A stretch of 21,122 nt of DNA. Origin: a virus. The position numbers and the translations under genes were made by a program. Below are positions 16,063 through 20,999 of this stretch, in pieces. The notes beneath the pieces were generated by a model. That model had not been told where the DNA came from. It saw only the letters and a list, made by a program, of their open reading frames with translations, and did no database searches. The stretch is taken from positions 1 to 21,122 of the IMG/VR virus record IMGVR_UViG_3300036826_000351. The stretch is one strand, 5' to 3'. Every line of letters starts with the position of its first letter. Positions within the stretch are counted from its first letter, which is position 1.

Positions 16063-16917
16063 CTAGTTGACTTCGGGCATGTGGTCGGCACCGGGTCGGT
16101 GCCGCACGGTCTGACGTTCGCGGCCGGTGGCGTAGTCGTTCCAGGACCGGATGCCGTTGGCCAGGAACGTGGTCTGCCGGTAGGTGCCGGGCACCTTGGC
16201 GTAGCCGGACTCCATGATCAGCCACTGCCGGAAGGCCCGGATCGGGCTGCCCTGGCCGAGGTCCGCACCGTCGCCGAGCCGGGCAGCGAACTCCGCCTGG
16301 GTGTCCGGCCCGTGCTGGCTGTACAGCGAGACCACCGAGATCAGCACCGAGGCACTGGTGCGCAGCCCGTACCGGCCGATCTGCTTGGCCACCTGGTAGC
16401 CCGGACGCAGCGAGTCCTCGATCGGCTTGCCGAGCTCGGGGTTGGCCAGCGCGATCAGGATGTCCGCGGTGGTCATCGACTGGGTGGCGGTGGTCAGCGT
16501 CGAGTTGGTGCCGACCACCTCGGGGTAGGCCAGCACCTGGCGGGTGGTGGCGGCCAGCACGTTCACGTCGGAGTAGCCGGCGATCTTCAGGCTGTCACCG
16601 GGCGACCGAGCCCGACCGGTGTCGATCACCCCGAAGGTCTCGGGGCTGGCATCGAAGGCCACCAGGCAGGTGACGTGCCTGCGCTGGCTGGCGATGGCGG
16701 TGAGCCGGTGCCGGCCGTCGAGCACGAAGCCGGTCGGGTCCAGGGCGATCGCCTGGTGGGTGACCTTCCATTCGCCGGACTCGATGGCGTGCAGGATCTT
16801 GGCGACGTTGCGCTGGTTGATCACCCTGGTGTTGCGCTCGGGTGAGACGGCCAGCCACTCCCGCGCCATCGCGGGGCTGATCTTGACCTCCTCTACTCGC
16901 ATCTTGGGGTTGGGCAT
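16063..16917 (-). CDS. ParB-like nuclease-fold protein
   Basis: 284 aa, ATG at 16917, 3 nt after the stop of the upstream gene, with GAAGGA as Shine-Dalgarno. The N-terminal 100 residues carry the ParB/sulfiredoxin-like pattern: INQRNVAKILHAIESGEWKV, then QAIALDPTGFVLDGRHRLTAIA with the DGRHR motif at residues 67-71, then VTCLVAFDAS and VIDTGRARSPGDSLKIAG. The remaining 180 residues are helical (LAATTRQVLAYPEVV, RTSASVLISVVSLYSQH). Proteins with this module in phages are usually called ParB-like nucleases and may bind nucleotides or DNA, or nick DNA. Which activity applies here cannot be told. There is no partner ParA, so genome partition is not indicated. Confidence 0.8.
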   Translation of the reverse strand: MPNPKMRVEEVKISPAMAREWLAVSPERNTRVINQRNVAKILHAIESGEWKVTHQAIALDPTGFVLDGRHRLTAIASQRRHVTCLVAFDASPETFGVIDTGRARSPGDSLKIAGYSDVNVLAATTRQVLAYPEVVGTNSTLTTATQSMTTADILIALANPELGKPIEDSLRPGYQVAKQIGRYGLRTSASVLISVVSLYSQHGPDTQAEFAARLGDGADLGQGSPIRAFRQWLIMESGYAKVPGTYRQTTFLANGIRSWNDYATGRERQTVRHRPGADHMPEVN

Positions 16918-17326: not shown

Positions 17327-18886
17327 CTAGCTGCGCACCATGATCTCGCCGTCGCTCAGGTCCACCTGGTGACGCTGGAGGACCCGCTCGACCACCGTCT
17401 CGAGAGAGGTCTCGAGCGCCGGCCGCTCCGGCCGGTCGGTGGACATCTGGTGCATCTCGATCGAGGGCCGCAACGCGTTCGCCGCCCGCACGAAGTCCTC
17501 GGTCGCCAGCGGCTGGCCGAGCTTCTTGGTGCGGATGATCGAGTACTTCACCACATCCTCCAGGGACCGGACGATGAACGCCGGCATCCAGCCCTCATAG
17601 GCGGTGTACAGAGCCGAGTAATCCAGCTCCAGCCGCTGCGAGGCGGGGATGTGGGCGTCGATCAGGCGCTTCACGCCGGGCTCGTCCAGACCACCGATGT
17701 TGATGGTGTGGTCGATCCGGTGCCCGCCCTTCATCGACTTCGGGATCTCCTCGATGTGGTTGGTGGTCATCAGCAAGGTGACCTCGAACCCCTTCGACCG
17801 CATCCCGTCGAACTCGTCCAGCAGCGCGTTCATGGCGTCGAGGTTGGTGAACAGGTGCTCCACGTCCTCGACCACCACCACCGCTGGGTTGTTCAGCGCC
17901 TGGACGAACCGCAGCACCAGGGCCAGCGGCTCGTTCCACCTGGCCTCCACAAAGGTGTGGCCGTTCTCCAGGCAGTACTGCCCGGCGATCGCACAGGCCA
18001 GCGTCTTGCCACCGCCGTTGTCACCCGACAGCAGCACGTTGTTGGACAGCTTGATGTGGGTGAACTCCCGCTTGGGCTGACCGGTCTCGGGATCGGTGAC
18101 CGGGTTGCCCTCGGCGTCCACCACCTCGAAGCCCTCGGTGTTGGCCCTGCGGATCAACTCGGCGTTCTCGATCAGCCCGTAGACGTGGGCCTGCAGCTCC
18201 CACCAGTTCTCCTCGGAGTAGGCCACGATCGAGCGGTCCACCTTGTAGGGGTCATAGAACTCCGGATCACCGGTGACACCACGCATCGACTTGCCGGAGT
18301 AGATCGAGTTCTCCTTGAGGAAGTCCTCGAACATGGCGAAGAAGTTCGTGATGTCGTCCTCGAACTTCTTGGCACCGTAGGCCTCCACATGCAGCGCCGG
18401 CCCGTACTCCGGGTCGTGGATGCCGTTCAGCACGAAGGTGGTCTTCCAGGGGGCGAAGTACAGCTGCCCCCAGGGGACGTTGATCCGCTTGGTGGGGCTG
18501 ACCTGCACCCGCATGATCTGGGGTGGCTGGTCTCCGAAGAAGCTGCGCTGCCGCTTGCCGACCGGGAAGTCCCAGAGCTTGGCCAGCAGCTGGTTGAAGT
18601 TCCAGGCACCGTCCGGGGGACGGCACTTGAAGGTCGCGTTGAACTCGTAGGTGTCGGCGTTGGCGGTGATCTTCTCCTGGATGATCTCGCCGGCCTCTTC
18701 GAGCTCCATCTTCTCCGGGATGGCGACCTTGGTGCCGCCGTCCTTGCGCTTCTCGATCTTCTCGATCGTGGTCACACGGTCCCGGCCGTAGGCCGCCAGC
18801 AGCTCGCTGACGCTCTCGAGCTGGCGCAGCCCCGCTTCCTCGGTCCACGGGTCTGTTACCTCTTGAGTTGTCTTCTTCGTTGCCAC
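17327..18886 (-). CDS. AAA+ ATPase
   Basis: 519 aa from GTG at 18886, with AGAGGA about 10 nt upstream. The N-terminal 280 residues form an unidentified mixed domain (about 80-170 beta-rich with KRINVPWGQLYFAPWKTTFV; about 170-250 helical). The ATPase core follows. It has Walker A GDNGGGKT (288-295), Walker B VVVVED (336-341), sensor-1 region LLMTTNH (371-377, Asn376), and R390 in GHRIDHTI as a likely arginine-finger position. A C-terminal helical lid runs to about 475. The E340-D341 order and TTNH resemble BCS1-type AAA proteins rather than the common DE. The protein probably works as a hexamer that remodels a protein or protein-DNA complex. The target is unknown. The neighbouring membrane and ParB-like genes are candidate partners. 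Confidence 0.85.
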   Translation of the reverse strand: MATKKTTQEVTDPWTEEAGLRQLESVSELLAAYGRDRVTTIEKIEKRKDGGTKVAIPEKMELEEAGEIIQEKITANADTYEFNATFKCRPPDGAWNFNQLLAKLWDFPVGKRQRSFFGDQPPQIMRVQVSPTKRINVPWGQLYFAPWKTTFVLNGIHDPEYGPALHVEAYGAKKFEDDITNFFAMFEDFLKENSIYSGKSMRGVTGDPEFYDPYKVDRSIVAYSEENWWELQAHVYGLIENAELIRRANTEGFEVVDAEGNPVTDPETGQPKREFTHIKLSNNVLLSGDNGGGKTLACAIAGQYCLENGHTFVEARWNEPLALVLRFVQALNNPAVVVVEDVEHLFTNLDAMNALLDEFDGMRSKGFEVTLLMTTNHIEEIPKSMKGGHRIDHTINIGGLDEPGVKRLIDAHIPASQRLELDYSALYTAYEGWMPAFIVRSLEDVVKYSIIRTKKLGQPLATEDFVRAANALRPSIEMHQMSTDRPERPALETSLETVVERVLQRHQVDLSDGEIMVRS

Positions 18887-19468: not shown

Positions 19469-20473
19469 TCAGGCGGCCTTGTCGCCCGAGCCCTTCTGAG
19501 CCTCGGCCAGGGCCTTCAGCTCGCGGATGTGCTTGAGCCGCTTGTCCTCGGCCTGGGCACCTCGGTGCAGCGCGTCCCGGTAGACCCCGGAACGCTCCCG
19601 GTCGAGCCGCCCGCCCGGGTGCTCGTGCATCCACTGGGCCTCCAGGTACTCGGAGAACTCCCGGTGGATCTGGGCGGTGGTCGCGGTGTCCTTCTTGAGC
19701 GTGGTGGACTTGCCGGCCCGGACGTGCACCAGGTTCCGGCGAGCCTGCAGCTCGCACAGGTACTCCGGGTCGGGCTCGACCTTGGCCTGCTCGGCCTTGA
19801 TCAACCCGTCCAGGAAGTTGAAACGCTGCGTCAGCGTCTCGTTGGGGTTCAGGTCGCCGTCGGGCAGCCTGACCTGGTATCCACCGTTGACGATCGGGGC
19901 GACCGTCTGGGCGACGACCTCCGCGACCTCCTCGGTGACCTGCTGGGCCTCGACAGCCGCCGCTGTCTCGGTCGTGCGTGCCTCGGCCGCCTCGGCGGCT
20001 GCCCGGCTGGCGTTCTCCTCGGCGATCCGCCGCTGGTCCATCGCGGTCTCGAGCGTGGTGACCTTCTCCTCCACGACCTCGACGACCGGGGTCCTGCTCT
20101 TCCAGCCCTTCCGGAGCCAGTTGAGGAACATGATCACCGCGACCAGCCCGCCGATGGCGAACAGGGCGGTCAGGATCTTGGACCCGGCCAGGAACATCAA
20201 GAACGCGCCGGCCCCGACAAGCATCGGGTCGATCACGTATCTGGTGGTGAAGACACGGGCAGGAGTGCTCCACGCCCATACCTTCCTCGCTGCCGCGGCG
20301 GTGCGGTTCCACACCCACTGCGTGGCGGCGTTCGTGCCGAGCCACTTCGTGGCCCGGACAACCTGAGAGCCGGCCTTCTTGGCGACCCTCGCGAGCTTCT
20401 GCCTCATCGAGCGGAAGTCCGACGCGACCCTCATCAAGAAGGTGTCGCGGTTTGGGATGGCTGCTTCAGCCAT
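19469..20473 (-). CDS. Two-span membrane protein with coiled coil, unknown
   Basis: 334 aa, ATG at 20473, 6 nt after AGGAGGGG. Residues 1-80 are basic with several Trp (KWLGTNAATQWVWNR, AAAARKVWAWSTPAR). Residues about 83-98 and 100-119 are hydrophobic (MLVGAGAFLMFLAG, then ILTALFAIGGLVAVIMFLNWL) and form a hairpin of two spans. A basic patch RKGWKSR follows, then a long Glu/Ala-rich coiled coil (about 128-195) and a helical C-terminal domain (about 215-325) with charged residues. Both long ends are predicted to be on the same, probably cytoplasmic, side. It could anchor another cassette protein, such as the AAA+ ATPase, at the membrane (inference). Confidence 0.75.
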   Translation of the reverse strand: MAEAAIPNRDTFLMRVASDFRSMRQKLARVAKKAGSQVVRATKWLGTNAATQWVWNRTAAAARKVWAWSTPARVFTTRYVIDPMLVGAGAFLMFLAGSKILTALFAIGGLVAVIMFLNWLRKGWKSRTPVVEVVEEKVTTLETAMDQRRIAEENASRAAAEAAEARTTETAAAVEAQQVTEEVAEVVAQTVAPIVNGGYQVRLPDGDLNPNETLTQRFNFLDGLIKAEQAKVEPDPEYLCELQARRNLVHVRAGKSTTLKKDTATTAQIHREFSEYLEAQWMHEHPGGRLDRERSGVYRDALHRGAQAEDKRLKHIRELKALAEAQKGSGDKAA

Positions 20474-20528: not shown

Positions 20529-20603
20529 GGGCCTCTTCGGGCCTACCCCGCAGGGGTGGATCTCGCTACATGACTTCGGGCCTCTTCGAGCCCCACCCGC
20601 AGG
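20529..20603 (-). repeat. Two 26-bp direct repeats, each able to form a hairpin, in the leader
   Basis: Copies at 20529-20554 and 20578-20603 agree at 22 of 26 positions. They share GGGCCTCTTCG and CCCGCAGG. On the - strand each reads CCTGCGGG...GGC(T/C)CGAAGAGGCCC and can fold into a small GC stem with a GAA-type loop. They lie between the terminator at 20616 and the membrane protein gene at 20473, in its probable 5' leader. The start-to-start distance is 49 nt. Confidence 0.75.
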
Positions 20604-20612
20604 TTCCGGACA

Positions 20613-20745
20613 TGCAAAAAGGCCCGCCGGCTGATAGCCGACGGGCCTGGTTAGACCGAACGGTCCAGGGTGCCCACCCCGGGGTAGGGGATGGGCACGA
20701 CTGCAGCGCTCGGGCTGGTTGTGGGCAGGCTTACGCCAACTCACT
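20613..20745 (-). ncRNA. Candidate small RNA or attenuated leader with three hairpins
   Basis: A predicted leftward transcript starts near 20745, below the promoter, and ends at the terminator around 20616. It contains no convincing open frame. Reading leftward it holds an 11-bp hairpin with one bulged base (arms around GTGCCCA/TGGGCAC, 20670-20698). A second hairpin follows (CCTGG/CCAGG with inner GACCG/CGGTC, 20646-20669), and then the terminator stem. The second hairpin and the terminator share two bases, so they could compete. It does not fold as a tRNA. Either a free RNA of about 130 nt or an attenuator for the genes further left would fit. Confidence 0.5.
20616..20647 (-). terminator. 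Classic intrinsic terminator (leftward)
   Basis: On the - strand GGCCCGTCGGC (20647-20637) pairs with GCCGGCGGGCC (20631-20621) over 11 positions with one wobble, closing a TATCA loop. TTTTT (20620-20616) follows directly. This is the cleanest terminator in the window. Confidence 0.88.
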
Positions 20746-20748
20746 GCA

Positions 20749-20780
20749 TGTAGTTTATCACAAACACTACAGCAGGTCTA
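20749..20780 (-). promoter_or_regulatory. Leftward sigma70-like promoter overlapping a palindromic operator
   Basis: On the - strand TAGACC (20780-20775) and TAAACT (20757-20752) are separated by exactly 17 nt. Each matches the -35/-10 consensus at 4 of 6 places. This is one of the few AT-rich patches in the window. A 23-bp imperfect palindrome, arms TGTAGTGTT and AAACTACA (20749-20771), covers the spacer and the -10 box, which is where a repressor would block polymerase. The -35 box overlaps the stop codon of the gene at 20778. Confidence 0.55.
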
Positions 20781-20999
20781 GGGAGGTGGCTGATCCGGAT
20801 GCACCGTGATCCCGGGGATCAGGAGCCGGGTGATCAGCTCCTGCACCTCCGGCGGGTAGTCATCCAGATGCAGGTCCACCTGGTGATGGGCCTGGGCCCG
20901 CTTCTCGGCCGCCTCCATCAGGTTGGCGATCCGGTTCAGGTCGCGGGCGATGGAGCCGATGTGACCCCACATCTGCTGCTCGCCGATGGTGACGCCCAT
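20778..20999 (-). CDS. 73-aa small protein, unknown
   Basis: ATG at 20999 overlaps the stop of the upstream gene (TGATG) and has GAGGGG just before it. Sequence in parts: MGVTIGEQQMWGHIGSIARD, then LNRIANLMEAAEKRAQAHHQ (amphipathic helix), VDLHLDDYPPEVQELITRLL and IPGITVHPDQPPP. The pattern is a helical N-terminal half and a short helical C-terminal half with a Pro-rich tail. No family is recognised. Overlap with the membrane protein fragment upstream means the two are translated together. Confidence 0.72.
   Translation of the reverse strand: MGVTIGEQQMWGHIGSIARDLNRIANLMEAAEKRAQAHHQVDLHLDDYPPEVQELITRLLIPGITVHPDQPPP

Follow-up and report, generated by a model that had tools for sequence, protein, structure and literature searches.

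The DNA analyzed here, which we refer to as the window, is a phage record from IMG/VR with a length of 21,122 nucleotides (21 kb) and a G+C content of 63 to 76%. Its structural genes run rightward up to ~15.2 kb, and a leftward operon extends from 20.47 kb down to ~15.8 kb. The predicted products of this operon are a 334-aa membrane/coiled-coil protein, a 145-aa protein, an AAA ATPase, a 92-aa protein, and a ParB-like protein. The first gene (19469..20473, minus strand), which encodes the 334-aa protein, evolves fast; the AAA ATPase and ParB-like genes lie at 17327..18886 and 16063..16917, both on the minus strand. Upstream of the operon is another leftward gene, of 73 aa (20778..20999, minus strand). 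The subject of this analysis is a promoter-terminator unit in the interval from 20778, where the 73-aa gene ends, to 20473, where the operon begins. The relatives used for comparison are metagenomic records throughout; a probable actinobacterial setting is suggested by base composition and by a distant similarity to phages of Gordonia, Arthrobacter, and Microbacterium.

The unit begins with a leftward promoter, TAGACC-17-TAAACT, which had been proposed in a preliminary description of the locus and which is borne out by our analysis. The putative −35 element TAGACC (20775..20780, minus strand) overlaps the TAG stop codon of the 73-aa gene. It is separated by 17 nt from the −10 hexamer TAAACT (20757-20752, minus strand), part of an extended −10 element, TGA-TAAACT (20752..20760), that is the sole TGnTAnnnT match on either strand of the window. 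Even the simpler TANNNT pattern occurs only four times on the minus strand of the whole 21 kb. The promoter core is 25/30 identical in a near relative, G001 (IMGVR 3300036832_000756), which has an AAA ATPase 84% identical to that of the window and carries a promoter-terminator unit between the same two genes. Most relatives have a TNGACN or TTGTGC-like hexamer ~17 to 18 nt upstream of the −10 element, as judged by eye. The pattern TGnTAnAnT is present in 16 of 19 related records. Where leftward or structural genes fix the orientation of a record, the pattern is found on the leftward strand only, whereas its reversed control falls on both strands; this comparison leaves out two records without units but with scattered matches (G031 and G042). 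The longer TGTGnTAnAnT gave 17 matches in 37 records, versus 7 for the reversed control. The promoter is presumably active, judging from its sequence. It is very improbable that the terminator merely ends the upstream operon and that the apparent promoter arose by chance: a leftward gene does end at 20778, but the promoter core is conserved across the group, and the extended −10 element, rare elsewhere in these genomes, is found on the leftward strand alone. A second promoter class, CCCTTGTGC-17-TGATATAAT-like, was observed ahead of further leftward genes at seven loci (L153, L154, L156-L159, and L164), and most of its members have a conserved TGTAGTG in the spacer.

A 23-bp imperfect palindrome, TGTAGTGTTTGTGATAAACTACA (20749..20771), overlies the promoter, as previously described, and 8 of its 11 pairs match. 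It does not exceed chance expectation in a local shuffle test (p = 0.10), and it is one of 72 23-mers in the window that have at least eight pairs. In G001, it has decayed to 6/11 pairs without compensating changes. L136, L143, and most second-class promoters retain the left arm, TGTAGT, next to a right arm that does not pair with it. A repressor binding this putative operator and thereby controlling a small RNA or attenuator, as the preliminary description envisaged, is accordingly an unlikely explanation. In its favor, inverted repeats around the −10 element reach p ≤ 0.02 in 8 of 26 related promoters, and the Fisher combined p, obtained from promoters that are not all independent, is ~5 × 10−8; the spacers of these repeats, however, vary from 4 to 14 nt. 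Furthermore, a search for integrases of the tyrosine type found none in the records of 14 relatives, and HTH_3 domains occur in only three records. A repressor may operate in some phages of the group, but the lysogenic operator and lysogen setting suggested for this phage are unsupported.

From the −10 element, we predict a leader RNA of ~131 nt (20615..20745, minus strand) with a fold z score of about −6.7, or −4.6 when the terminator is removed. A 5′ hairpin (P1; 20721..20744) lies at the start of the RNA and is weak in the window alone (z = +0.33), compared with a mean z of −1.45 for the same region over 26 homologous 5′ ends (mononucleotide shuffles). The central hairpin (P2; 20653..20716) has an apical stem at 20670-20698 with a 7-nt loop. 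The RNA ends in the intrinsic terminator that had already been recognized (20648-20616), with a 13-bp stem, a 3-nt loop, and five T residues. All three hairpins are on the minus strand. The small GGACCGTTCGGTC stem of the preliminary description is not separate but is absorbed into the central hairpin in the lowest-energy fold. We also confirm that the ~130 nt lack a convincing open frame, as the four closest leaders have none in common. A small peptide from an 89-aa GTG frame was considered and rejected because this frame is not conserved. Searching Rfam with the RNA returned no match above the gathering score.

The unit recurs in related phages. Relatives were not readily recovered by sequence similarity: a DNA search against phage records gave no direct match to the window, searches through the first operon gene, the 73-aa gene, or the tail protein returned only G001 or nothing, and two genome scans found no relative. 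A search of IMG/VR with the promoter DNA pattern gave 12 matches besides G001, all of which we attribute to chance in AT-rich phages. A capsid search of IMG/VR yielded 79 loci, and the AAA gene was present in 14 of the 45 records searched. The unit lies upstream of the AAA operon in 12 records besides the window (G001 counted) and also occurs in second positions. In total, we read ~30 units, all leftward, in 15 records (window included), and each genome carries between one and four of them. No clear unit was seen at one extra site (G026, 9333). The arrangement in relatives is that of the window, namely, an extended −10 element, a structured RNA of ~65 to 155 nt, a terminator, and a gene within ~26 to 150 nt. 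We set aside cultured phages whose AAA or capsid proteins resemble those of the group, as their gene order differs. Most hairpin letters differ between the RNAs of the window and G001, and both fold with z scores of about −6.7 (−6.65 for the G001 counterpart, L002); without its terminator, the G001 leader has a z of −3.9 and, like that of the window, is still significantly folded. Between its upstream gene and promoter, G001 also has a stretch of ~117 nt (L002, 2999-3116) that is flanked by perfect 14-bp inverted repeats, CCTGCTGTGCCGGG, and is absent from the window.

The association of promoter and terminator is far above background. Terminators were called by one fixed rule, and the background was set on 2.0 Mb of structural-gene DNA of the group, both strands. 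Of 26 extended −10 sites, 18 are followed within 220 nt by a strict terminator, compared with a background of 0.003 per 220 nt. The other eight sites have bulged or long-loop hairpins with T-rich runs, which were identified by eye and not by the fixed rule. In control structural-gene DNA, none of 18 extended −10 motifs precedes a terminator. Whole-leader fold z scores range from −3 to −8 in 17 leaders. Because a MAFFT alignment of all 15 leaders was poor, we counted covariation on the four closest leaders only (the window, L002, L138, and L151). Among these, 55 pairs were counted, of which 92.6% are paired and 15 are changed on both sides. The covariation score was reached by none of 500 shuffles, a control that is independent of the consensus structure but ignores relatedness. 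It was lost when the partner was slid by one to three columns, a control biased in favor of the structure, which is the consensus of the same four sequences. Two-sided changes fall in the central hairpin, in the terminator (5 of 14 pairs in this subgroup), and in stems beyond the terminator; none occurs in the 5′ hairpin. Relatives lacking both the promoter and hairpin covariation had been named beforehand as evidence that would count against the unit; instead, the promoter is kept and the hairpins covary.

These folding predictions do not support a classical RNA switch, that is, an attenuator or riboswitch with an antiterminator. We saw no antiterminator pairing as a conserved feature among the leaders, and no mutually exclusive alternative is visible. 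In most leaders, the 5′ arm of the terminator is predicted to pair hardly at all with the RNA upstream of it (values near zero); the maximum is 0.65, and the window has a value of 0.62.

The ATG of the gene at 20473 is 135 nt past the terminator, or 134 nt past the GCATGTCC tail described below, with no other −10-like hexamer between. The same holds across the group: all 25 units whose start codon was assigned have a gap, often of 26 to 44 nt, that is free of TANNNT-type −10 elements, which are what the check covers. Start codons were assigned by a simple rule and may be wrong in L138, L145, L133, L141, and L151, where the true gap would be longer or shorter. The order is therefore promoter, intrinsic terminator, and gene with no other TANNNT-type promoter between, as is characteristic of an attenuator or terminated leader, and this arrangement is kept in related genomes. 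A stand-alone small RNA is characterized by its own promoter, its own terminator, and a lack of coding capacity, all of which the unit has by sequence alone, and by a separate promoter for the downstream gene, for which our search for TANNNT-type −10 elements found no candidate.

A conserved tail, GCATGTCC (20608..20615, minus strand), stands directly behind the T-run of the terminator. We found [CT]ATG[CT]C behind 16 of 18 strict unit terminators and [CT]ATGTC behind none of 26 control terminators. The combined pattern TTTTN(0-3)CATGTCC has a single occurrence in the window; 11 of 24 records contain it, and throughout the group it is leftward. Among five cultured phages checked, it is absent from four, and the fifth, Keelan, has a single site. 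A conserved open reading frame starting at ATGTCC was rejected because lengths and frames vary. Farther on, part of the 5′ untranslated region (20529..20617, minus strand) is also structured, with a TTGCATGTC/GTCATGTAG stem, TGCG-loop hairpins, and paired GGGCTCGAAGAGGCCC-type hairpins. These structures are confined to the window, L002 (3248-3345), L138, and L151, in which covariation is present and the post-terminator stem begins inside the T-run. The GGGCTCGAAGAGGCCC-type hairpins of this four-leader subgroup are two near-identical copies, 49 nt apart, in the 5′ untranslated region of the first gene.

We consider that the unit probably (at a probability of roughly 0.7) provides the leftward operon for the membrane/coiled-coil, AAA ATPase, and ParB-like proteins with its promoter and a terminated leader. 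What the sequences show is the order of promoter, folded RNA, terminator, and gene, the conservation of the promoter, the covariation in four leaders, and a gap without another −10-like hexamer. The weakness of the window's 5′ hairpin alone counts against this reading. RNA polymerase would start near 20745 and make a folded leader of ~130 nt; it would mostly halt at the intrinsic terminator, releasing a short hairpin-protected RNA, and the fraction running through would yield the operon mRNA. In each related phage, such leaders would head between one and four leftward genes or operons. Here, we infer the start site, the efficiency of termination, and the abundance of the short RNA. Since the gene follows the terminator immediately, with no promoter visible between them, its expression requires transcription across the terminator. 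Read-through from the unit promoter is the more likely source of the operon transcript because this promoter is so well kept; upstream leftward transcription could also feed the operon, and the short RNA would then be a separate product.

The terminated leader is a stronger reading than the self-contained small RNA without a gene that the preliminary description offered. Of that description's small RNA or repressible attenuator, comparison supports a promoter-driven, terminated, structured RNA; its isolation from any gene is the weaker part, given that ~30 units lie directly upstream of genes with no other recognizable promoter in the gap, and the palindrome proposed as its operator is weak here and not kept as such in the nearest relatives. 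A true small RNA gene, whose short product would act on host or phage RNAs or proteins while the operon is fed from upstream past the terminator, is a less probable alternative. It accords with the strong fold, the 5′ end closed by a hairpin, and the strong terminator, as well as with the Pleft RNA of phages L5 and D29, which is abundant and whose region is toxic to M. smegmatis (PMC5712189). Nevertheless, all units with an assigned start directly precede a gene, which is not required of a free small RNA; the hairpin sequences diverge fast, with no conserved target-pairing seed identified; and transcripts from upstream would meet the same terminator.

In the terminated-leader reading, the absence of a conserved antiterminator pairing implies that read-through is either leakage or dependent on a factor. 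A phage or host protein acting on the 5′ hairpin or on CATGTCC might let polymerase pass at all leftward units, a possibility to which we give limited credence. The repetition of the architecture at several loci per genome speaks for such antitermination, as does the presence of YATGTCC after nearly all unit terminators and after no control terminator; with no RNA-encoded antiterminator, any control would need a factor. No factor has been identified, however, the conserved motif is positioned after the terminator and not before it, and constant leakage explains the order equally well. More speculative still is the proposal that the leftward units form one regulon under control at the terminator, in which a phage or host factor recognizing the leader or CATGTCC would, as infection proceeds, make all leftward operons yield full mRNA in place of short RNA.

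Unit order alone also resembles that of type III toxin-antitoxin systems such as ToxIN, which consist of promoter, RNA, terminator, and gene. We rejected this identity because tandem repeats are lacking between promoter and terminator and nothing downstream matches a toxin family (ToxN type).

The closest parallels are leaders known from single systems. The Pleft RNA of L5, D29, and StarStuff is likewise a terminated noncoding RNA from a leftward early promoter, heading a leftward operon, and ~90% of L5 Pleft transcription terminates with some read-through (PMC5712189). The analogy is partial: the L5 Pleft RNA is ~500 nt, processed, located at the genome end, and driven, in a temperate phage, by a promoter whose repressor is known (PMC5712189), whereas the units described here are 65 to 155 nt, occur several times per genome, and belong to phages in which no tyrosine integrase was found. 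GraL, in the Escherichia coli greA leader, similarly has an intrinsic terminator within a 5′ untranslated region, with approximately two-thirds of transcripts ending as short RNA and one-third becoming mRNA (PMC6829880). It is a single cellular locus of ~50 nt regulated by GreA (PMC6829880); the phage leaders exceed this length, contain additional hairpins, and recur. Together, L5 Pleft and GraL establish that such leaders exist and that their RNA products can have effects of their own. The SAS/ESAS elements of Cluster K phages are also short conserved sequences upstream of several phage genes, some with an inverted repeat of variable spacer (PMC3203893). However, SAS GGGATAGGAGCCC lies at the start codon, with no promoter-terminator unit described (PMC3203893), and the conserved YATGTCC tail of the units described here lies between terminator and ribosome site. 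Cluster O mycobacteriophages have SigA-type promoters and 17-bp repeats (PMC4351075). Unlike the units here, some of those promoters are predicted to be leaderless, few terminators were reported, and the repeat is an invariant palindrome in more than 30 copies (PMC4351075).

Terminated leaders that yield a short RNA together with a smaller share of long mRNA have been known singly. In the present group they are recurrent, with ~30 units in 15 records, a promoter that is conserved, hairpins that covary, and a conserved motif immediately beyond the terminator. Phage-wide control by termination becomes testable, and the units define an RNA family that is absent from Rfam. Our findings also call for caution, as similar phage promoter-terminator pairs may be operon leaders and not isolated small RNA genes.

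Two further terminator-like hairpins were noted on the minus strand of the window. One, inside the operon after the membrane/coiled-coil gene (19457-19428), has 13 bp followed by TTCTTC, and L137 has a similar hairpin at a comparable place. The other (15257-15243) is followed by TTTTTTGCATTTC at the meeting point of the converging gene sets, and its tail is similar to those of the unit terminators.
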